This document shows positions 23,254 through 36,715 of a stretch of 64,000 nt of DNA, piece after piece. The DNA is from Bacillota bacterium. Its GTDB lineage: Bacteria; Bacillota; Clostridia; Peptostreptococcales; Anaerovoracaceae. A program made the translations under genes and the position numbers. The stretch spans positions 1-64,000 of the forward strand of contig JAFRXM010000061.1 in the NCBI GenBank assembly GCA_017443515.1, given 5' to 3'. The notes below the pieces were generated by a model. The model ran no database searches and was not told the DNA's origin. It saw nothing but the letters and a program-made list of their open reading frames with translations. The number at the start of each line of letters is the position of its first letter. The stretch's first letter is position 1.

Positions 23254-24546
23254 TTACAGAAGCCCTGCGTCCTTCAGGGCCTGGAGGCTCTTGATCACGC
23301 CGAACTTGGAGTGCTCGTAAGTTATGCCGCCCTGGAAATACACGATATACGGTTCGCGCATAGGCCCATCCGCAGAAAGCTCTATCGAAGATCCCTGCAC
23401 GAAAGCCCCTGCCGCCATGATGATCTTGTCCCTGTACCCTGCCATGTCGCCGTACTCTGGAGTAACGAAGGAATCGACCGGAGCGGCCTGCTGCACGCCC
23501 TTGCAGAACGCTTCGACTTTCCCGGCGCTGCCCAGCACAACAGCTTCTATAATATCGGAACGCCTGTCGGTCGAATGCGGACAGGTCTTATATCCGAGGT
23601 TCTCGTAGACCCTAGCGCAGAGCTTGGCGCCTTTTACAGCGCCGTTGGTGACGCGCGGCGCAATGAACAGCCCCTGCATCATGGTCCTGGTCTGGCCGAA
23701 AGTAAGGCCGCATTCGCCGCCTATGCCCGGGCATGTCACGCGGTAATAGATCTTATCGATAAGGTCCTTGCGTCCCGCGATATATCCGCCGGAGAGCGCA
23801 AGGCCTCCGCCGGGGTTCTTTATAAGCGAACCCGCCATGATGTCAGCGCCCAGCGCTATGGGATCCTCGTAATCCGTAAATTCGCCGTAGCAGTTATCGA
23901 CCATAAGGATAATGTCAGGTTTTACGGACCTGCAGGCGTCTATCCATGCCTTTATGCGGTCCGTCGTGAACGCTCTTCTGAAGGAATAACCGGTTGAACG
24001 CTGAAGAGCCGCCATAGTGGTAGTCGGCTTTATCGCAGCTTTTACTGCTTCAAGATCTATCTCGCCGTCCTCAGTAAGCTCCACCTGGCTGTACTTTATG
24101 CCGTATTCCTGGAGATTTCCGGGCGAAAGATTGTCCTTATCCAGGCCGATCACTGTCTTCATCGTGTCGTAAGGCGTTCCGCTGCAGTAGATAAGCTCGT
24201 CTCCGGAGCGAAGAAGCCCCAGATACACGCTTGCCAGCGCGTGTGTTCCGTTTACGATCTGGGTCCTTACGATAGCAGCTTCCGCATTGAAAACACTGGC
24301 GTAGACGCGTTCTATCGCGGCGCGTCCCATGTCGTCGTAGCCGTAGCCTGTGGTCCAGCCGAAGTGCATGTCGCTGATCCGGTTCTCCTGAAAAGCCTTA
24401 AGCACCTTGTACTGGTTGTATTCCATTATTTCGTCCTGCGCTTTGAACTCATCCGCAAGCTCTGCTTCGGCCTTCTGCACCAGTTCGACGATATCTTCGT
24501 CTATTCTGAACTGTTGACGTAATAATTTTACGGTTTTATCATTCAT
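23254..24546 (-). CDS. ynbB: Methionine gamma-lyase-like / aluminium-resistance (YnbB) family PLP protein
   Basis: A 430-residue fold-type I PLP enzyme of the Met_gamma_lyase/YnbB family. Visible features are HFGWTTGYGYDD near the N-terminus, QIVNGTHALASVYLGLLRSGDEL, a cofactor-binding Asp region LMVDNCYGEF, and the probable PLP lysine in SLIKNPGGGLALSGGYI. Its true reaction is not settled; a cysteine/methionine C-S lyase role is inferred from fold. ATG at 24546 overlaps the recombinase stop by eight bases. Position next to the miaA/mutSL region is conserved in Clostridia. Confidence 0.88.
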   Translation of the reverse strand: MNDKTVKLLRQQFRIDEDIVELVQKAEAELADEFKAQDEIMEYNQYKVLKAFQENRISDMHFGWTTGYGYDDMGRAAIERVYASVFNAEAAIVRTQIVNGTHALASVYLGLLRSGDELIYCSGTPYDTMKTVIGLDKDNLSPGNLQEYGIKYSQVELTEDGEIDLEAVKAAIKPTTTMAALQRSTGYSFRRAFTTDRIKAWIDACRSVKPDIILMVDNCYGEFTDYEDPIALGADIMAGSLIKNPGGGLALSGGYIAGRKDLIDKIYYRVTCPGIGGECGLTFGQTRTMMQGLFIAPRVTNGAVKGAKLCARVYENLGYKTCPHSTDRRSDIIEAVVLGSAGKVEAFCKGVQQAAPVDSFVTPEYGDMAGYRDKIIMAAGAFVQGSSIELSADGPMREPYIVYFQGGITYEHSKFGVIKSLQALKDAGLL

Positions 24547-25678
24547 CTTTCTTAAGATCTTCTCCCCATTCAAAGTTTTTTATAAGCTCGCGCTTGGTGT
24601 TGAGCTTGTGCGCCGCGTAAAGCTGCGTTGTCGTGACGTTGTCGTGGTCCATAAGCTCCTGGACGTCGTATATGGAATTGCCGCGCCCTATGAGCGATGT
24701 GGCCGCCGTAGCCCTCAGCTTGTGCGGGCTGTAGCCGTTATCGCGCGTGGTACCCATGCTTATGGAAGTGTATTTCTTCACTATCTGCCGTATCTGCCTG
24801 TCCGTAAGGCGGCTGCCCTGAAGCGACAAAAGCAGCGCGTCGCGGCTTTCCTGCGGCAGATCCTCTTCCTTCGGCCGTTCTATGTTCACGTAGTCGTTCC
24901 ATGCCTCGGTGATTGTCCTGTTTATAGGCATAATGGACTCTTTTCCGCGCTTTCTGTAGATCTTGAACTCGCCGCGGTCGAAATTAAACGACGAGATGTT
25001 CAGCTGCTGCAGCTCCGAAAGCCTGAGGCCGTACGTTACCAGAAGCAGCAGTATCAACTTATCCCTAAGCTTCGTCTTTTCCCAGTAGCTCTTTTCATGT
25101 CCGGTAAGGCCTTCACCGGTCTGGACAGCGTCCAGCATCTTCATCACCTCGTCGTCCTGAAGAGCCTTTATCTCGCGTTCTCCGGGCTTGGGCATCCTTA
25201 TCGGATCAAAACCGTCGGTGATATTCTTTGAAACCAGACCGTCTCTGTACAGGTATTTGAACAACACCGAGACAGCCGACTTCTTGTGCGACAGCCTGCT
25301 GTTCTGGTTCTGATAGACGACATCATTGCCGTCCTTGTCCTTAACTTTATAGCGCCGGCAGTAGTCTATGTAGATGTTAACATCCACTGAAGTGATCTGG
25401 TCCAGATCGCCGGGAGTTATCTGACTGATGCTTTCGTATTTCTTTTCCGCGATCACCGATTCTTTTATCAAATAATTGAAAAAGAAGCGGATATCCCCCA
25501 GATACGAGAGCCTGGACATGGGCAGTATGCCGTTTTTCAGGTACATGAAAAACCCGCGCATCCACTTTGGAAGCTCGGATTCAATCCTTTCGCAGCGTTC
25601 CTGGATCTCGTTTTCGCGCTCTACGACATTGTCGGGTTTGTCGGATTTGTTGTGCAGTATTACCTTTTTTCCGCTCAT
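24539..25678 (-). CDS. Tyrosine recombinase (Xer-like)
   Basis: A 379-residue site-specific recombinase with an N-terminal SAM-like core-binding domain (about 30-160) and a catalytic domain with the full set: Arg in TYGLRLSELQQL, Lys in YRKRGKES, HxxR in SPHKLRATAATSL, His in LMDHDNVTTTQ and the nucleophile Tyr in TQLYAAH. Probably a housekeeping Xer-type enzyme rather than a phage integrase, because its neighbours are chromosomal and no att-like repeats are seen. A TGG-TATAAT promoter lies so close to the ATG that the mRNA is predicted leaderless; an in-frame TTG further up would overlap the -10 and is rejected. Confidence 0.88.
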   Translation of the reverse strand: MSGKKVILHNKSDKPDNVVERENEIQERCERIESELPKWMRGFFMYLKNGILPMSRLSYLGDIRFFFNYLIKESVIAEKKYESISQITPGDLDQITSVDVNIYIDYCRRYKVKDKDGNDVVYQNQNSRLSHKKSAVSVLFKYLYRDGLVSKNITDGFDPIRMPKPGEREIKALQDDEVMKMLDAVQTGEGLTGHEKSYWEKTKLRDKLILLLLVTYGLRLSELQQLNISSFNFDRGEFKIYRKRGKESIMPINRTITEAWNDYVNIERPKEEDLPQESRDALLLSLQGSRLTDRQIRQIVKKYTSISMGTTRDNGYSPHKLRATAATSLIGRGNSIYDVQELMDHDNVTTTQLYAAHKLNTKRELIKNFEWGEDLKKDE

Positions 25679-25684
25679 GACGGT

Positions 25685-25690
25685 ATTATA
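25685..25690 (-). promoter_or_regulatory. Extended -10 promoter of the tyrosine recombinase gene
   Basis: TATAAT preceded by TGG on the minus strand, with a weak -35 (TTGTTT at 16 bases). The start codon begins six bases after the -10, so transcription would begin at or within one base of the A of the ATG. Confidence 0.6.
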
Positions 25691-25714
25691 CCACAACTAT
25701 TCCGAAAAACAAAC

Positions 25715-26380
25715 TCATTCAGATATGATTTTGCCGTCAGAAATGGTTATGAGCCTCTGCCCTGAAGAAGCGATTTTGGGATCATGTGTAACGATTATAA
25801 CCGTCTTGCCCTTCTCATTGATACTTTTCAAAAGATCTATTATCTGGCCGCTTGTAACTGTATCAAGCTGTCCTGTCGGCTCATCAGCCAGTATTATGGA
25901 CGGTTCGTTTACAAGAGCTCTGGCGATCGCAACCCGCTGCCTTTGTCCTCCGGACAGCTGATTAGCCTTCTTCTTTGTCTGGTTCTTTAGTCCTACAGAT
26001 TCCAGTGCACCCTCTGCCAGATCTCTTATCTCACCAAAAGGCACCTTGCTGAAAAGCAGCGGCAGCATGACATTGTATAAAACGGTCTGATGGTCGATCA
26101 AAGCAAAATCCTGGAGAACGAATCCAATTTCTTCATTGCGAATACGCGACAATTCTTTGTCCTTTTGTTCTTTGATATCTATGCCGTTTAACTTGTATGA
26201 ACCACCGTCAAAACTGTCTAAAAGTCCAATTATATTCAGCAGAGTCGTTTTTCCAGAACCCGAGGCGCCGCAAACAGATATAAATTCTCCGTCATCTATT
26301 CTAAGATCCACATCTTTAAGCGCATAAAAATCTTCTGCGCCGGTTTTATAGATCTTTATTATTCCATTCAGTTCTATCAT
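25715..26380 (-). CDS. ABC transporter ATP-binding protein (MacB/LolD class)
   Basis: A 221-residue cytosolic ATPase with Walker A GASGSGKTTLLN (about 39-46), signature LSGGQRQRVAIARAL, Walker B IILADEPTGQLD and the switch histidine in VIIVTHDPKIASSG. These match the short ATPases that serve MacB/FtsX-type permeases. Last gene of the minus-strand cassette, 12 bases after the second permease gene. Expected to energise export, resistance to, or mechanical release of the secreted protein encoded upstream, by analogy only. Confidence 0.92.
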   Translation of the reverse strand: MIELNGIIKIYKTGAEDFYALKDVDLRIDDGEFISVCGASGSGKTTLLNIIGLLDSFDGGSYKLNGIDIKEQKDKELSRIRNEEIGFVLQDFALIDHQTVLYNVMLPLLFSKVPFGEIRDLAEGALESVGLKNQTKKKANQLSGGQRQRVAIARALVNEPSIILADEPTGQLDTVTSGQIIDLLKSINEKGKTVIIVTHDPKIASSGQRLITISDGKIISE

Positions 26381-26392
26381 AGTGCGCCTCAG

Positions 26393-27619
26393 TTATTCAT
26401 TCCTTCTTAAAAGCATTATCGGCGATTTACCAGCTGTCATAGCCAGTACTGTTACAAAAGCAATTATCAAGGTAAAAGCAAAATAAGCAAGCACCATCAG
26501 CCTTGCCGTATCTCCCAGCATCATAGAGCTGAATCTTATTCCAAGGAAGCCATCATCAAGCGCTGCATTTGTTCTTGAACTGTCTGCTATTCCTATTATG
26601 ATAAGGTTAATGATCGCCGGAATAAGTGAAACGACTGTTGTTGCAGCAAGTGTGAGCCTGATCGTCTGACTTTTACTGGCTCCGCAAAGATATGAAACTG
26701 CCAACTCATCTGACTTTTTCCTTACAAACAGGATCACCATGCTCAAATATGAAACTGTAGATGTCAGAAGCAGAAAAGCCGGACGCGGCAGCATGGTCTT
26801 CATGTTTTCCTTGATCTGAACTTCAGTGTTATTTGTTATCTCTTCCATGGATACCATCTGCCCGAATGGGGCAAAAGCTCTCTTTACTCCTGCAATATCA
26901 TCATTTGATGCAGATTTGTTAAAACTAATGATATAGTTGGGACTGCTTATCAATAACGAAACTTCTCTGAAATGCTCAAGATTCTTTTTTGTTGCAGGCA
27001 TAATTATTGCTGCATCCACGCTCTGAAACAGATCTTGTGCAAGGTGATCTGTACTTGTTCCGCTAAGTAATAGCTGTTTATATGCAGACCTTATATGTTT
27101 TATGACAGGAAAGGTTTCAGTGTGGATACCGGGCCTGTTGAATTTGAGCTCTATTTCATGTGACAGATCATCAAAGTACGGCCCGACGACAATGCAGCCT
27201 TCTTCATTCCCTTCAAAATCAAAACCTGTCTCCTTAAGTGCCGTAAAATCTTCTGTGATTTTTGGGTCCAACAGCAATATGCTGAAACCAGAATCGTGAT
27301 AGGAAACACTATTTGCTGTATATACACAGTATACATGATCCACTTCTGGCATTTTGGCAATTTCATCGACTTTTAGTGTCATTGCTGTTGGCTGTCCTTG
27401 CATAAGTTTTGAAAGATCTTCATCAGATACAAACGCTTCTGTATAATAAACATTACTCTCTGAAGACTTTACTATACGATAATCGTACATAATATATCTT
27501 ATGTATCCAATGTTTTGTATCCAAATAAACATTGCAAGTGTCATCAGAATGACCATGGCTGTAGTGTGAGGCCTTAATCTTTTGAAGAATTCATGAAGCG
27601 AATATAGAAACCTTCTCAT
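26393..27619 (-). CDS. FtsX/MacB-like ABC permease, subunit 2
   Basis: A 408-residue membrane protein: one membrane helix near the N-terminus (about 21-40), a large extracytoplasmic domain (about 45-285) and three C-terminal helices (about 290-310, 335-357, 380-400). This is the four-helix MacB topology. RKKSDELAVSYLCGASK near the second helix resembles the FtsX-family coupling segment. Sequence similarity to the neighbouring permease is low, so a heterodimer is likely. Ten bases follow the first permease gene. AT-rich compared with housekeeping genes nearby. Confidence 0.78.
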   Translation of the reverse strand: MRRFLYSLHEFFKRLRPHTTAMVILMTLAMFIWIQNIGYIRYIMYDYRIVKSSESNVYYTEAFVSDEDLSKLMQGQPTAMTLKVDEIAKMPEVDHVYCVYTANSVSYHDSGFSILLLDPKITEDFTALKETGFDFEGNEEGCIVVGPYFDDLSHEIELKFNRPGIHTETFPVIKHIRSAYKQLLLSGTSTDHLAQDLFQSVDAAIIMPATKKNLEHFREVSLLISSPNYIISFNKSASNDDIAGVKRAFAPFGQMVSMEEITNNTEVQIKENMKTMLPRPAFLLLTSTVSYLSMVILFVRKKSDELAVSYLCGASKSQTIRLTLAATTVVSLIPAIINLIIIGIADSSRTNAALDDGFLGIRFSSMMLGDTARLMVLAYFAFTLIIAFVTVLAMTAGKSPIMLLRRNE

Positions 27620-27629
27620 ATTTCCGGAT

Positions 27630-28706
27630 TCAATCCTTCCTTCCCCTTGCTTTTATAAATGATCTATTTGTAAAAGCGATTGTGAATAACAAAATGATAA
27701 TAATACTAAGCATCAATACAATAATGAAAATGCTTAGATAATCTGTTATGTTATATTGAATTCCTTCTATCACATTTAGTTTTGAGAAAAGTACAGGTGT
27801 CAGTATTTTGTGCAAAATGATCCCGACTGCTGTTCCTGCAGATGTGAGCAGAATTCCCTCTAAAAACACCATTGCGGAAATAGTGTTTCTTTTTGCTCCA
27901 ACTATACGGCTGACAGCATTTTCTTTTTGCCCGGAATCAAGAAGAAACCTGAAAAGAAATAAGAACGAAACACTGCTTATTGTAAAACTGATTATTATCT
28001 GCATACTTGCAAAGAACGTATCAGATCTGTCAAATGCATCCCCTATTGGGCGTTCAAAATGCTGATCCGGTATTATCGCTTCAAATGCTCGTATGACGGC
28101 ATCATCATTTTCTATATATCTTTCCTTTGAGACTGCAGTAACAAAATACGGGCAGTCATTTTTATGGTTATCCCTTATTTCTTCAAAAGCGCTTTTAGAT
28201 ATAAAGAATTCAGTTGAACCATGTATCCCGATCACACTGAATTCTTTTCCATCTATATTTATTTTGTCATCTACTGAATAATCGAAACCGATTTTAGGGA
28301 CAATTATCTCTTTATCTACTACTGACCTGTTTTCACCATTCAGGATCACTAAGGGATAATCCCCGTAATATACGGTGCTTAATGCATAACCTCTATTCTC
28401 CGGTAAATACAAACCTTGTAATAGGCTTTCAAAAAGGTCTGTATCTATAAGTGAATTCAATACTTCCTTATCTTCTTTTGAGCTTTCGGCGTTAGGATCA
28501 AAACTAAACTGGTATTCTCTATACATATGGATGTTAGAGGAATTTCTTCTGGATATTGAAGGTATAAAATTACCGTAAAGGTAACAAACCATTACGGAAT
28601 TAATGATCGCACCAATAACAAACAGGATAAATATCCATTTATCCTGTTTGCAGTACTGTTTAAGACGCTGTAGAACTAAAAATACTGTTTTCATTATTCT
28701 TTGCAT
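27630..28706 (-). CDS. FtsX/MacB-like ABC permease, subunit 1
   Basis: A 358-residue membrane protein with an N-terminal helix (about 24-45), an extracytoplasmic domain and three C-terminal helices starting about residues 235, 275 and 320. SGQKENAVSRIVGAKRNTISAMVFLEG is the typical FtsX-family loop between helices. GENRSVVDKEIIVP and IGIHGSTEFFISKSAFEEI recall the MacB periplasmic core domain. The first ATG follows the secreted-protein stop by seven bases without a clear ribosome-binding site; a second ATG at 28694 is possible. Translation is likely coupled. Confidence 0.78.
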   Translation of the reverse strand: MQRIMKTVFLVLQRLKQYCKQDKWIFILFVIGAIINSVMVCYLYGNFIPSISRRNSSNIHMYREYQFSFDPNAESSKEDKEVLNSLIDTDLFESLLQGLYLPENRGYALSTVYYGDYPLVILNGENRSVVDKEIIVPKIGFDYSVDDKINIDGKEFSVIGIHGSTEFFISKSAFEEIRDNHKNDCPYFVTAVSKERYIENDDAVIRAFEAIIPDQHFERPIGDAFDRSDTFFASMQIIISFTISSVSFLFLFRFLLDSGQKENAVSRIVGAKRNTISAMVFLEGILLTSAGTAVGIILHKILTPVLFSKLNVIEGIQYNITDYLSIFIIVLMLSIIIILLFTIAFTNRSFIKARGRKD

Positions 28707-28713
28707 CTATTTT

Positions 28714-29157
28714 TTAGTAATAGTGACATAACCAATAGTCAGTATTTGAAGTGCCATTACTATAATTAACTGTTCTTGAGCCTGAATGTTCAACATACTC
28801 AGCATAATAACAGCCGGAAACTGATATATCACCGGTTCTTATAGCTCCGGAAACGATCGAATAACTTGTATATTGAGCGATCGAACCGTTTATGCCCTTT
28901 ATATAAACCTTAGCGTAACCCGTATTGTCAGATGCTACAGACAGATTCGTGTTAGCTGATGCTTTGTTATTTAGAATAAAACCAACATAGTATCTGCCAG
29001 TTAATGGTCCGGTAGAACTATTAGGATATGCAAACATATATCCGGTACTCATATCAACATCATAATAATTGACAGAATTTGTTGCTGCAAATGCAATTGA
29101 TGACATGGATATGATCAGACATAGTACAAGAATAATTGCTATTATTGACTTTTTCAT
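28714..29157 (-). CDS. Small secreted Tyr-rich protein of unknown family
   Basis: A 147-residue precursor with a classic signal peptide (MKKSIIAIILVLCLII through AFA, predicted cleavage about residue 24). The mature part of about 123 residues is rich in Tyr (about 17), Ser, Asn, Thr and Gly, looks beta-rich, has two cysteines (SGCYYAE and WLCHYY) that could pair, and ends DYWLCHYY. AAGGAGG precedes the ATG. It sits between a LysR gene and two permease genes plus an ATPase. The layout recalls lactococcin 972-type loci (secreted beta-sandwich bacteriocin with aromatic C-terminus plus membrane protein plus ATPase), but I see no convincing sequence match. Confidence 0.7.
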   Translation of the reverse strand: MKKSIIAIILVLCLIISMSSIAFAATNSVNYYDVDMSTGYMFAYPNSSTGPLTGRYYVGFILNNKASANTNLSVASDNTGYAKVYIKGINGSIAQYTSYSIVSGAIRTGDISVSGCYYAEYVEHSGSRTVNYSNGTSNTDYWLCHYY

Positions 29158-29244
29158 TTGCCGCCTCCTTACCTGAATATGATTGTTTATCCTGTATAGA
29201 GTATAAAGTATGTGGTAAAGTATTTTATTGCAAATATCATAAAT

Positions 29245-30219
29245 CTATATTTCACATTTCAAGTTATACTTCAATTCAGACATGATTTCTGGGATGATAT
29301 CTGTAATTAAATCAATAAAACTATCGTTTTCTTTATTGCTATCAGGATTAAATATTATATATGTAATAAAACAGTTTCCTTCAGGATCATTATATGGAAT
29401 TTGTCCTATATCACTATCGTATTTAATGAAACTTGATGTAAGACGGGCATAATTCTGATTGTTATTTTTGATATCTTCAAAAATCAAAGATAGATCAGTA
29501 TAGTATTGCGTTGAATAATTTGTTGTTATATTTCTGATCCCATATCGATCACATTCATCTTTAAATATAGTAAGCCCAGGAATTGATTCCAAAGGTGTAA
29601 AAATGAAACATGTATCTGGATATAATTGTAGCTCTTCTAGACTTAATGACTCCTTGCACGCTAATATACTGTACTTGCTAACATTAATAATCCCTTTATC
29701 TGTAAACAAAGCCTTACATCCATAGTCTTTTAACGCTTTAGAAAAACTGTCCTGCAATTCGTCTTCCACTTTACCGAATCTTGTATAAAAACATATGTCT
29801 ATATCTTTATTAGACAACAACTGAATTATTCTTTGGTTATCAGATTTATGTACAAACAGCTGTTTTTCAGGAAAACGAATTCTAAAAGCCTCAATTATTC
29901 GAAATTCAATAAATGGATCAACAGAGAACGGGATTCCAATATGTATTTCAGTCTTATCGTTTAGTGCTATGATCTTTCTATTGATTTCATTTATTCTGTA
30001 TTCAATATCCTTTAAACTTGGCAAAATATGCAGCAAAACATCTGTTGGAACAACAGTTGATTTTCTGTTCCTTATAAACAGTTTCGTTCCAAAGGCATTT
30101 TCTATTTTTGACACCTGCCTTGATACAGTCGCTAAAGAATATCCAAGTTCTTCAGCAGTTTTTGTAAAGCTTAGAGTATCACTGATCGATATAATTATTC
30201 TTATCTGTTCAAGATCCAT
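29245..30219 (-). CDS. LysR-family transcriptional regulator (island-encoded)
   Basis: A 324-residue regulator. The N-terminal winged helix-turn-helix shows LSFTKTAEELGYSLATVSRQVSKIENAFGTKLFIR (split here only by loop residues), followed by a linker helix and a periplasmic-binding-type effector domain. Strongly AT-rich. No Shine-Dalgarno sequence is visible. It lies 87 bases upstream of the secreted-protein gene on the same strand, so it may control or be cotranscribed with the cassette. It diverges from a second LysR gene across a 27-base palindrome. Confidence 0.9.
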   Translation of the reverse strand: MDLEQIRIIISISDTLSFTKTAEELGYSLATVSRQVSKIENAFGTKLFIRNRKSTVVPTDVLLHILPSLKDIEYRINEINRKIIALNDKTEIHIGIPFSVDPFIEFRIIEAFRIRFPEKQLFVHKSDNQRIIQLLSNKDIDICFYTRFGKVEDELQDSFSKALKDYGCKALFTDKGIINVSKYSILACKESLSLEELQLYPDTCFIFTPLESIPGLTIFKDECDRYGIRNITTNYSTQYYTDLSLIFEDIKNNNQNYARLTSSFIKYDSDIGQIPYNDPEGNCFITYIIFNPDSNKENDSFIDLITDIIPEIMSELKYNLKCEI

Positions 30220-30345: not shown

Positions 30346-30375
30346 TTGACATCTAAGATAAAACTTTGTGATAAT
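30346..30375 (+). promoter_or_regulatory. Promoter of the second LysR gene
   Basis: TTGACA (30346-30351), 18-base spacer and GATAAT (30370-30375) preceded by TGT, giving an extended -10. It lies 39 bases downstream of the palindrome. Confidence 0.65.
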
Positions 30376-30410: not shown

Positions 30411-31379
30411 ATGGAAATCAAATACCTCGATACTGTAATAGCCGTAGCCGACAACCTCAGCTACTCCAGGGCAGCGCAGATCATCAATTGCTCGCAGTCA
30501 TCCGTAAGCAGGCAGGTAGGCATAGTCGAAAGAGATCTGGGGGTAGAGCTTTTCAACCACATAAAAGGAGGCCGCGTTGAGCTTACCGATTACGGCAAGC
30601 GCATGCTTCCGATGATGCGCGAGATCATGTCCGGATACAGCTACCTTCAGGAGAGCGCCGGAAGGAAAGCCGACGGAGCCGCGATCCCCTTCCGCCTCGG
30701 CGTGTATAAAGGACCATTCACCTATGGCCCCAAGGAAAAGCTCTTTACCGAGATAGTGATGGCCCACCCGGAGTTTATGATCTCCGTCACGGAATGCCGA
30801 AAAGACGACGCTATAGAAAAGATCAAGGCCACAAACATGGACGCCGCCCTGCTCTACCGCGCTTTCTTCGTTAACGAAAAGAACAGCCGCATAAAAATCG
30901 ACGACCCTAATATCAAGGTGCGCGAACTCTTCAAAAAATACCCTTCCATAGCTATGCCAAAAGACCATCCACTGGCCAGAAAAGGCTCCATCTCGTTTGA
31001 GGAGCTGAAGTACCAGGTGTTTATAATGAGCGCTGACATCTCCAGGATAGGCCGCGGCAACCTTGCCGTGCAGCACGACGGATTTCTGCGAAGCTGCAAC
31101 CATTTCGGCTTTACTCCGCGCATCAAGACAATTACTGACACGCCGTCAAGCGACAACAGGACAGCGGCGCTTCTTACCAACGGCTGGATGTACCCGACCT
31201 TCCTTCCCAACAGCATGAACGATGTGGATAACGTTGCTTTCATACCCGTCGAGGAACCTATATTCTACGGCAAATACTACCTTCTGACGCCAAAAAAAGA
31301 GCGCCCCGGCACCGATACTGTGGCGGACTCCCTTATAAAGATACTGACTACAGACGACCCAAGCTGCAAAGCTCTTTAG
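30411..31379 (+). CDS. LysR-family transcriptional regulator (host-type composition)
   Basis: A 322-residue regulator with N-terminal helix-turn-helix (LSYSRAAQIINCSQSSVSRQ) and a substrate-binding-like effector domain. Its base composition is like the housekeeping genes, unlike the divergent island LysR. CGGAG precedes the ATG. It converges on miaA: the two stop codons overlap (TAG at 31377-31379 on plus, TAA at 31376-31378 on minus). Target and inducer are unknown. Confidence 0.92.
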   Translation: MEIKYLDTVIAVADNLSYSRAAQIINCSQSSVSRQVGIVERDLGVELFNHIKGGRVELTDYGKRMLPMMREIMSGYSYLQESAGRKADGAAIPFRLGVYKGPFTYGPKEKLFTEIVMAHPEFMISVTECRKDDAIEKIKATNMDAALLYRAFFVNEKNSRIKIDDPNIKVRELFKKYPSIAMPKDHPLARKGSISFEELKYQVFIMSADISRIGRGNLAVQHDGFLRSCNHFGFTPRIKTITDTPSSDNRTAALLTNGWMYPTFLPNSMNDVDNVAFIPVEEPIFYGKYYLLTPKKERPGTDTVADSLIKILTTDDPSCKAL

Positions 31380-34130: not shown

Positions 34131-36715
34131 AGCTTTTTGGCCTCCTCCTGAAGCTCCTCCAGAAGCCTTATCGCTCCGGAAGGCGTTATATTCATAAGGT
34201 CAAGATCCCTGAGTTTTTGCGCTATCACGGAATCGCCAAGGTTGAACAGCGACAGCTGGGCTTCGGAAGAAGCCCTCTCTTCACGTTTTCCCTTTGCGCT
34301 CCGGTTTTCCTGTGCAGGATCTGTGCTTTTCTGAACTCCTCCTGTATCGGCGTGACAGAGAACCGTCCCCTTGTCACCTGATTCCAGCTCGTCCAGCTTG
34401 TTCTGCGCGGCTTCGAGGACAGACTTCGGAACGCCCGCAAGTTTCGCGACGTGTATGCCGTAGCTGCGGCTCGCGGCGCCCTCAACTATCTTGTGAAGGA
34501 ACACTATATTGCCGTTCTGCTCAGCTACGTCCACGTTAAGATTGCGCACGCCTTCTATACTTTCCGAAAGAGCGGTAAGCTCGTGGTAGTGGGTCGCGAA
34601 AAGCGTCCTGGTCTTAAGATCCGGCCTTGTGAGCGCTTCAACTACGGCCCAGGCTATGGAAAGACCATCCCAGGTGCTGGTGCCGCGGCCTATCTCATCC
34701 AGGATGACAAGGCTCTTCTTCGTCGCGGTGTTGAGTATGTACGCAAGCTCTGACATCTCCACGAAGAACGTGGACTGCCCCATGGAGATGTTGTCCGAAG
34801 CACCTATCCTGGTGTAGATGCGGTCGCATATGCCTATGCTTGCCTCGTCCGCCGGGACAAAGCAGCCCGCCTGCGCCATCAGGACTATCAGCGCCAGCTG
34901 GCGCATATAGGTGGATTTACCGGACATGTTAGGACCGGTTATGAGAAGCATGGACGCCTTATCGCGGTCTATGTACACGTCGTTCGACACGTAGATTCCG
35001 TCCGCGATGGTATTTTCTATCACCGGATGGCGTCCGCGCTTTATAACGATCTCATCCTTGTTGTTTACGGATGGCTTTACATAATTATTTCTTACGGAGA
35101 CTTCCGCGAAACTGCACAAAACATCTGCGGATGCGAGCGCTGTGGAACTCCTCTGGATGTTCGCAGTCAGATCTTTTATCTTAAGCCGAAGCGCCGTGAA
35201 CAGCCTGTATTCCAGATCGTTGGTCTTGGTCTGCGCGTTTAAGACCAGGCTCTCCACCTCTTTTAGCTCCGGAGTTATATACCTTTCGCCGCCGACAAGA
35301 GTCTGCTTTCTGATGTAGTCTTCCGGCGCCATGTCCGTCTGCGACTTGCTGATCTCGATATAGTAGCCGAAGACCTTGTTGTAGCCCACCTTGAGGTTCT
35401 TTATTCCTGTGCGCTCGCGCTCGGTCGCCTCAAGCCCTGCTATCCACTTCCTGCCGTCCCTTGCGGAATCGTTGATATCATCCAGTTCTTTGGAGTAGCC
35501 CGGCTTGATCAGCCCGCCTTCTCTTACGGTAAACGGCGGATCGTCGGTGATGGCAGCCTCTATCTCCTCGCAGATGTCGGTGAGCGGATCTATCTGCGCG
35601 TTGAGCTGGTCCAGAAGCTCCTGCGAAACGTTGGAAAGCTCGGCCTTTATGTCCGGAAGCCTCTTAAGACTCGTCTTTAGCGCAACAAGATCCCTGGCGT
35701 TGGCCGTACCAAGGGATATCCTTGCTATCAGCCTTTCGAGGTCGTAGACGTCCTTCAGGGCGTTCCTCAGGTTGTTGCGCGTATACACATCCTCCACCAG
35801 GGCGTCTACGGCGTCCAGGCGCTTTTGTATCATATCTATGTTTATGAGAGGTTCTCTGAGCCAGGAACGCATCTTCCTGGAGCCCATGGCCGTGCCACAG
35901 AGGTCCAGAACGCCGAGAAGCGAACCGTTAACACCGCGCTCGAACAGAGTCTCGGTTATCTCAAGGTTCTTTACTGTTGCCTTATCAAGCCTCATCGTGA
36001 CGGAATCGTCCACTATGCGCATGGGCTCGAGGTGCGTAACATCCTGTTTTTGTGTGTCCTTAAGGTACGCCAGAAGCATGCCCGGAGCGCTCTTTTCGTA
36101 GCTCAGCCTGCTGCTGATGCACGAGATGTAAAGCCCTTCGGTATGCTGCGCAAAGTCCCATAGATCAGGCGCCCTGTCCGCGTCGAAGTTTGTAATGATC
36201 TCTTTCGGCTGCACCCTTACCAGCGTTTCTATCAATTGCTCGCTGCGGTTCTCTCCGCCTATGCGGCTTGCGCAGAACTCGCCGGTGGATATGTCGCACC
36301 AGGAAAGGTCTATGCTGTCGTCGAAATACACGGCAAACAGGTAGTTGCTCTCCTTTTCGGAAAGCATGGTATCGCTTACTACTGTGCCCGGAGTCACGAC
36401 CCTTATTACGTCTCTTGGAACTATGCCCTTGCATGTCGCCGGGTCTGCCATCTGCTCTGCGATAGCTACTTTATAGCCTTTTTCTATGAGCCTTGCTATG
36501 TAGGTGTCCGCCGCGTGGTAAGGAACTCCGCACATCGGAGCCTTCTCGTCGTCGCCGCAGGCACGGGAGGTCAGCACCAGTTCTATTGCTTTTGACGCAA
36601 CTATGGCATCGTCAAAAAACATCTCGTAGAAATCGCCGAGACGGTAGAAAAGAAGGCAGTCCTTGTACTGCTCCTTCGTCGCCAGATACTGCTGCATCAT
36701 CGGGCTGTATGCCAC
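34127..36715 (-). CDS. mutS: DNA mismatch repair protein MutS
   Basis: Mismatch-recognising ATPase of 862 residues. The mismatch-reading Phe-x-Glu appears in GDFYEMFFDDA near residue 30; Walker A GPNMSGKST lies near 593-600 and DEIGRGTSTWDG follows. The C-terminal linker holds an unusual insertion, DKGTVLCH, encoded by a small palindromic repeat (34352-34377) in frame; after it the normal QLSLFNLGDSVI and dimer region resume. The start is GTG at 36715 with a clear GGAGG eight bases upstream; the stop overlaps mutL. Confidence 0.96.
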   Translation of the reverse strand: MAYSPMMQQYLATKEQYKDCLLFYRLGDFYEMFFDDAIVASKAIELVLTSRACGDDEKAPMCGVPYHAADTYIARLIEKGYKVAIAEQMADPATCKGIVPRDVIRVVTPGTVVSDTMLSEKESNYLFAVYFDDSIDLSWCDISTGEFCASRIGGENRSEQLIETLVRVQPKEIITNFDADRAPDLWDFAQHTEGLYISCISSRLSYEKSAPGMLLAYLKDTQKQDVTHLEPMRIVDDSVTMRLDKATVKNLEITETLFERGVNGSLLGVLDLCGTAMGSRKMRSWLREPLINIDMIQKRLDAVDALVEDVYTRNNLRNALKDVYDLERLIARISLGTANARDLVALKTSLKRLPDIKAELSNVSQELLDQLNAQIDPLTDICEEIEAAITDDPPFTVREGGLIKPGYSKELDDINDSARDGRKWIAGLEATERERTGIKNLKVGYNKVFGYYIEISKSQTDMAPEDYIRKQTLVGGERYITPELKEVESLVLNAQTKTNDLEYRLFTALRLKIKDLTANIQRSSTALASADVLCSFAEVSVRNNYVKPSVNNKDEIVIKRGRHPVIENTIADGIYVSNDVYIDRDKASMLLITGPNMSGKSTYMRQLALIVLMAQAGCFVPADEASIGICDRIYTRIGASDNISMGQSTFFVEMSELAYILNTATKKSLVILDEIGRGTSTWDGLSIAWAVVEALTRPDLKTRTLFATHYHELTALSESIEGVRNLNVDVAEQNGNIVFLHKIVEGAASRSYGIHVAKLAGVPKSVLEAAQNKLDELESGDKGTVLCHADTGGVQKSTDPAQENRSAKGKREERASSEAQLSLFNLGDSVIAQKLRDLDLMNITPSGAIRLLEELQEEAKKL
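34352..34377. repeat. In-frame copy of the GAACCGTCCC palindromic repeat inside mutS
   Basis: GTGACA (34352-34357) and TGTCAC (34372-34377) flank GAGAACCGTCCCCT. The 26-base unit lies in the MutS linker and is read without shifting the frame. It shares the core AGAACCGTCCC with the intergenic copy at 23210-23236. Confidence 0.65.

Follow-up and report, generated by a model that had tools for sequence, protein, structure and literature searches.

On the minus strand of the window, by which we mean the whole 64,000-nt stretch of DNA analysed here, four closely spaced genes are read in a single direction. A gene for a small secreted protein is followed after 7 bp by a first permease gene, after another 10 bp by a second permease gene, and after a further 12 bp by the gene of an ABC-transporter ATPase (Table 1). 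All four open reading frames are intact, with good ribosome-binding sites and spacing.

Table 1. Features of the locus in the window, and related loci in other Clostridia genomes
Feature	Position	Strand	Details
Tyr-rich Sec-secreted protein, putative bacteriocin/effector	28714..29157	-	147 aa; ATG start; intact ORF
Ribosome-binding site of the secreted gene	29164..29170	-	AAGGAGG-CGGCAA-ATG; 6-nt spacer to ATG
Permease 1	27630..28706	-	358 aa; FtsX PF02687, E 1e-9; 1 TM + extracellular domain + 3 TM
Permease 2	26393..27619	-	408 aa; FtsX-like, FtsX match below cut-off; layout as permease 1
ABC ATPase	25715..26380	-	221 aa; MacB/LolD/Lcn972-type
Low-GC island	25715..30219	.	30-43% GC, against 51% for the window; deviant dinucleotide signature
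LysR-type regulator	29245..30219	-	inside the low-GC island; 87 bp upstream of the secreted gene, same strand
Second LysR gene	30411-31379	plus	normal GC
Tyrosine recombinase gene	24539-25696		normal GC; 18 bp beyond the ABC stop; PHROG integrase matches
Complete cassettes (secreted, permease 1, permease 2, ABC)	G861; G560 C221; G826 C1:2.94M; two in G873
Complete cassettes with more distant permease pairs	G743; G792; G560 C238; G826 C1:1.13M
Partial cassette	G665		secreted gene, permease 1 and permease 2; no ABC ORF listed behind
Partial cassette	G787 C41		contig end falls inside permease 1
Transporter-only loci	G007, G838, G787 C20, G787 C32, G490 C9, G490 C24, G689 and others

The product of the first gene begins with a clear Sec signal peptide (MKKSIIAIILVLCLIISMSSIAFA), likely cleaved after A24, and no modification gene is present in its cluster. 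Re-reading the sequence confirmed what an earlier, sequence-only reading had described: an open reading frame with a signal peptide, a mature part of about 123 residues containing 17 tyrosines and two cysteines, the aromatic C-terminus DYWLCHYY, and a ribosome-binding site of sequence AAGGAGG. The cysteines are C116 and C144, and the ribosome-binding site is positioned 6 nt ahead of the ATG. Ser, Thr, Gly and Asn together account for 42% of the mature protein, the net charge of which is about -1. This is more than a chance open reading frame, because it combines the signal peptide and a strong ribosome-binding site with a 7-bp gap to the next gene and with the first slot of a recurrent cassette, described below.

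The same reading had called the protein unrecognised and a fit to no known family, and our searches bear this out. No relative was found among Pfam, NCBIfam, PADLOC and PDB sequences, in plasmids and phages searched with tblastn, or in genomes and viral contigs scanned for sequence patterns, and a PHROGs search returned only three weak matches, to families of unknown function. Weak genome matches (99 relatives) were rejected as signal-peptide-level or chance similarities lying in unrelated open reading frames. The gene occurs as a single copy in its own genome, and its product is unique across all collections searched. A search for anti-phage defence genes gave generic ATPase matches only. An AlphaFold2 single-sequence model of the mature protein shows all-beta secondary structure and is too poor to trust (pLDDT 34.6).

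Profile comparison places the two permeases as homologues (hhalign 98.7%), and both display the layout of the FtsX/MacB/LolC type, in which one transmembrane segment and an extracellular domain (ECD) precede three further transmembrane segments. With this layout, an FtsX C-terminal domain and a LolD-like ATPase, the three downstream genes have the features of an FtsX/MacB-type ABC transporter. The best NCBIfam model for the ATPase is TIGR03608 (226 bits, under the cut-off of 254.85), and the MacB model scores 218; for several ABCs of other cassettes, the MacB or LolD score exceeds that of TIGR03608. Judged from these profile scores, the window ATPase is only generically MacB/LolD/Lcn972-like. 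A perfect 14-nt inverted repeat with a 4-nt loop (CAAACAGGATAAAT/ATTTATCCTGTTTG) lies at 28619-28650, near the start of permease 1, and a similar sequence, TTTATCCTGT, is found at 29186, upstream of the secreted gene.

The whole cluster falls within a block of low GC content (25.7-30.2 kb), which is also where the window's dinucleotide signature is most deviant. The genes beside it (the tyrosine recombinase, a methionine-lyase-like gene, the second LysR gene, miaA and mutL) have 50-54% GC. Because of its low GC content and deviant dinucleotide signature, the island was probably acquired horizontally. The tyrosine recombinase gene next to the ATPase may mark an edge of the insertion or may be unrelated to it; a search for mobile-element boundaries of the island found neither a tRNA nor any convincing repeats at the flanks. 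The LysR gene within the island is a possible candidate regulator of the cassette, which it might control from its position upstream, and no such gene was seen in the other cassettes examined. This gene and the second LysR gene are divergent and meet at the island edge, and a near-consensus promoter (TTGACA-18-GATAAT) lies between them at 30346-30375 on the plus strand.

Within the family, permease 1 is rare and patchily distributed (2 of 248 genomes). Using profiles of permease 1 or of the secreted proteins, grown from relatives, we found further loci in Clostridia. At 11 of these, a small secreted protein is encoded directly before permease 1, in nine complete and two partial cassettes (Table 1). 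As a positional control, a crude rule for small secreted open reading frames was applied to the window and 17 loci, which together hold 99 genes encoding 250 aa or more. Such a frame lies immediately before nine of the 99, each of them a permease 1 gene: eight from other loci and the one from the window (35295-36371 in reverse coordinates, which is 27630-28706). Since the control and the discovery share loci, this result shows the specificity of the position and gives no independent rate.

Several cassettes carry an extra gene behind the ABC gene (L103 5221-5862, L106 6462-7106, L109 5059-5535 and L110 5588-5971). Its product is small, with one N-terminal membrane anchor, and is a candidate immunity protein; the gene is absent from the window.

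Other loci hold the transporter only. At one of them, in a genome of the same genus (G007, L010 6784-7891), a frameshift splits permease 1, no secreted gene precedes it, and the gene context differs from that of the window. Copies of the transporter in relatives can thus decay, and an orphan sequence of foreign composition might likewise suggest that the window cassette is what remains of a mobile cassette, decayed or not expressed. Against such decay stand the four intact open reading frames of the window with their well-placed ribosome-binding sites, and we regard this explanation as highly improbable.

The secreted proteins of the cassettes fall into about five groups with no detectable similarity between them: the window protein by itself; those of G560, G826 and G873 (G873a and G873b); those of G665, G787c and G861; those of G743, G826b and G560b; and that of G792. 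All have a signal peptide, their mature parts range from 64 to 143 aa, and aromatic residues are frequent in many of them (8-18%). We considered whether the window protein might be homologous to either of two groups. It resembles the G560 protein marginally (z 3.5, with p 0.004 uncorrected for several comparisons), and the profile of the G560/G826/G873 group fails to recognise it, with 79% of shuffles scoring at least equally; homology to the G665/G787c/G861 group was ruled out by hhalign, shuffles and profile. The window protein is therefore equivalent in position to the other secreted proteins, and shared ancestry is not supported. Unrelated effectors combined with a conserved transporter are what would be expected for diversifying effectors served by a common transporter.

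The same variability bears on two further explanations. The secreted protein might be an extracytoplasmic partner of the transporter (a sensor, adaptor or chaperone) and no weapon, with the FtsX pair and the ATPase exporting or sensing something else. MacB/LolD-type transporters often have extracytoplasmic partners, and the secreted gene always lies immediately ahead of permease 1, at a short gap. A partner should, however, be conserved alongside the permeases, yet the secreted proteins are unrelated across groups, and complete transporters occur without one; we consider this explanation unlikely. We judge it very unlikely that the product acts as a signal or at the cell surface (as a pheromone, adhesin or pilin-like protein), with neighbours that would handle stress or its export. 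Such a role would suit a secreted, Tyr-rich product adjoining a LysR gene, but it offers no reason for the variability across cassettes, a scan of the open reading frame saw neither a sortase motif nor a lipobox, and Pfam and NCBIfam profiles of adhesin and pilin families gave no match.

Because the effector is variable, the transporter conserved, the island foreign and patchy, and transporter-only loci exist, an antibacterial protein accompanied by a transporter for self-protection or release is the most economical reading. We assign a probability of roughly 60% to the reading in which the cassette is bacteriocin-like and horizontally acquired, with the window protein as its variable effector and the transporter dedicated to immunity or export. 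Several points weigh against this reading: the effector has no homologue of known function, its similarity to the nearest cassette protein (G560) is marginal and is lost with a profile, the ATPase is generic in type, the permeases are not DUF1430 proteins, and secreted proteins with other functions also adjoin ABC exporters. The analysis suggests an unrecorded kind of bacteriocin-like secreted weapon that brings a pump of its own for protection or export. More tentatively, and a little short of an even chance, the cassettes may form a widespread, uncurated class in Clostridia, which would combine a hypervariable Sec-dependent effector with a conserved split FtsX-pair/ABC immunity transporter, and in which the window protein would represent a new type of effector.

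In the mechanism we infer, signal peptidase would remove the Sec signal peptide of the effector by cutting after A24, and what leaves the cell would be a soluble and probably beta-rich domain, rich in Tyr, Ser, Gly and Asn, with one possible disulfide (C116-C144). It would most likely act on rival cells at their envelope. Together, the permease pair and the ATPase would make up a transporter of the MacB type, which would shield the producer by removing the effector or an effector-target complex from the producer's own membrane; alternatively, the transporter may help to release the effector. If this is true, it would yield around 12 antibacterial candidates open to testing, namely small secreted proteins of Clostridia in about five groups unrelated to one another, and effectors should be recognisable through the permease-permease-ABC genes downstream of them and not through their own sequence.

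The lactococcin 972 (Lcn972) operon of pBL1 has the same order as the window cassette, on one strand and with a Sec-secreted protein first: LcnA, then orf2 (a membrane protein) and orf3 (an ABC protein). Immunity is credited to orf2-orf3, in a role that is presumed (PMC4055356), and the same presumed and likewise unverified role is given to scbBC of the Lcn972-like scbABC (streptococcin B) locus (PMC11796350). Pneumococcal genomes with scbBC alone are on record (PMC11796350), and Lcn972 loci and window-type cassettes both have transporter-only versions. The sequence-only reading had held that the protein recalls lactococcin 972 without matching it. For the protein itself this stands (the alignment with LcnA gives z = 0.0), and it is the gene context that speaks for a bacteriocin-like role.

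Could the window protein be a member of the Lcn972 family that has diverged past sequence recognition? The operon logic is shared, the C-terminus is aromatic, and the model described above, too poor to be read against the Lcn972 beta-sandwich, is all-beta. Furthermore, known members diverge strongly: mediterrocin, for which the same fold is predicted, is only 18% identical to Lcn972 (PMC12345188), and LcnA compared with the relative at L083 gives z = -0.2. Some true members likewise fail the pairwise test against each other. The PF09683 and Lcn972 NCBIfam profiles nevertheless found no match in the window protein up to E 10, and its comparison with LcnA and three Clostridia relatives gave no signal beyond shuffles (z -0.6 to 0.5). 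A PF09683 search of 41 relatives is uninformative, since it found no match there and its control was equally silent. The mature part, unrelated in sequence, is about twice the length of Lcn972, and two split permeases take the place of one DUF1430 protein. We regard membership as quite unlikely: the protein is not PF09683 by any test made, and it is on grounds of gene content that the window cassette would act like the Lcn972 operon. In another genome (G488, L080 3035-3478), a Tyr-rich secreted protein of 147 aa, with no similarity to the window protein, is encoded behind the genes of a DUF1430-like protein and the associated ABC.

With regard to the transporters, the window ATPase is 35% identical to orf3, which itself reaches 253.4 bits against TIGR03608 (cut-off 254.85). 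In a small ABC tree, the Lcn972 ATPases form a group of their own and the cassette ABCs fall outside it. Lcn972 operons typically encode one DUF1430 membrane protein with 7-8 TM. Orf2 is a single DUF1430 protein of 648 aa with eight hydrophobic segments, whereas the window has two FtsX permeases (358 and 408 aa) with four segments each; the hydrophobic layout of orf2 (1-ECD-4-ECD-3) equals that of the window permeases joined (1-ECD-3 + 1-ECD-3). Against the DUF1430 family, the window permeases show weak, remote profile similarity (hhalign E 0.002-0.02, probability 2-15%), and a TIGR01654 (DUF1430) search of their own genome gave no match. We suggest that orf2 may be a fusion of two FtsX-type permeases. 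In a limited search of open-access full text we found no description of the split-permease form, for which an earlier description is possible. If our reading of the cassette as effector plus transporter is correct, it would also hint at the way in which ordinary FtsX pairs and the fused membrane protein of Lcn972 are related.

In TMcin (tmcA-tmcP-tmcBC), two ABC-transporter genes accompany a small antibacterial that is secreted (PMC12328743). Like the window cassette, it sets a small secreted protein beside ABC-transporter genes; in contrast to it, TMcin shows a transmembrane helix, matures by proteolysis and includes a gene for a metalloprotease, where the window cassette has a Sec signal peptide and no protease gene. 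Elsewhere, MacB/LolCDE-type transporters such as AS-48 EFGH serve in bacteriocin self-protection. These transporters have FtsX/MacB-type permeases and a LolD/MacB-like ATPase in common with the window cassette, which differs from them in having two permeases, no HlyD-type adaptor and a variable Sec-secreted protein in first position.
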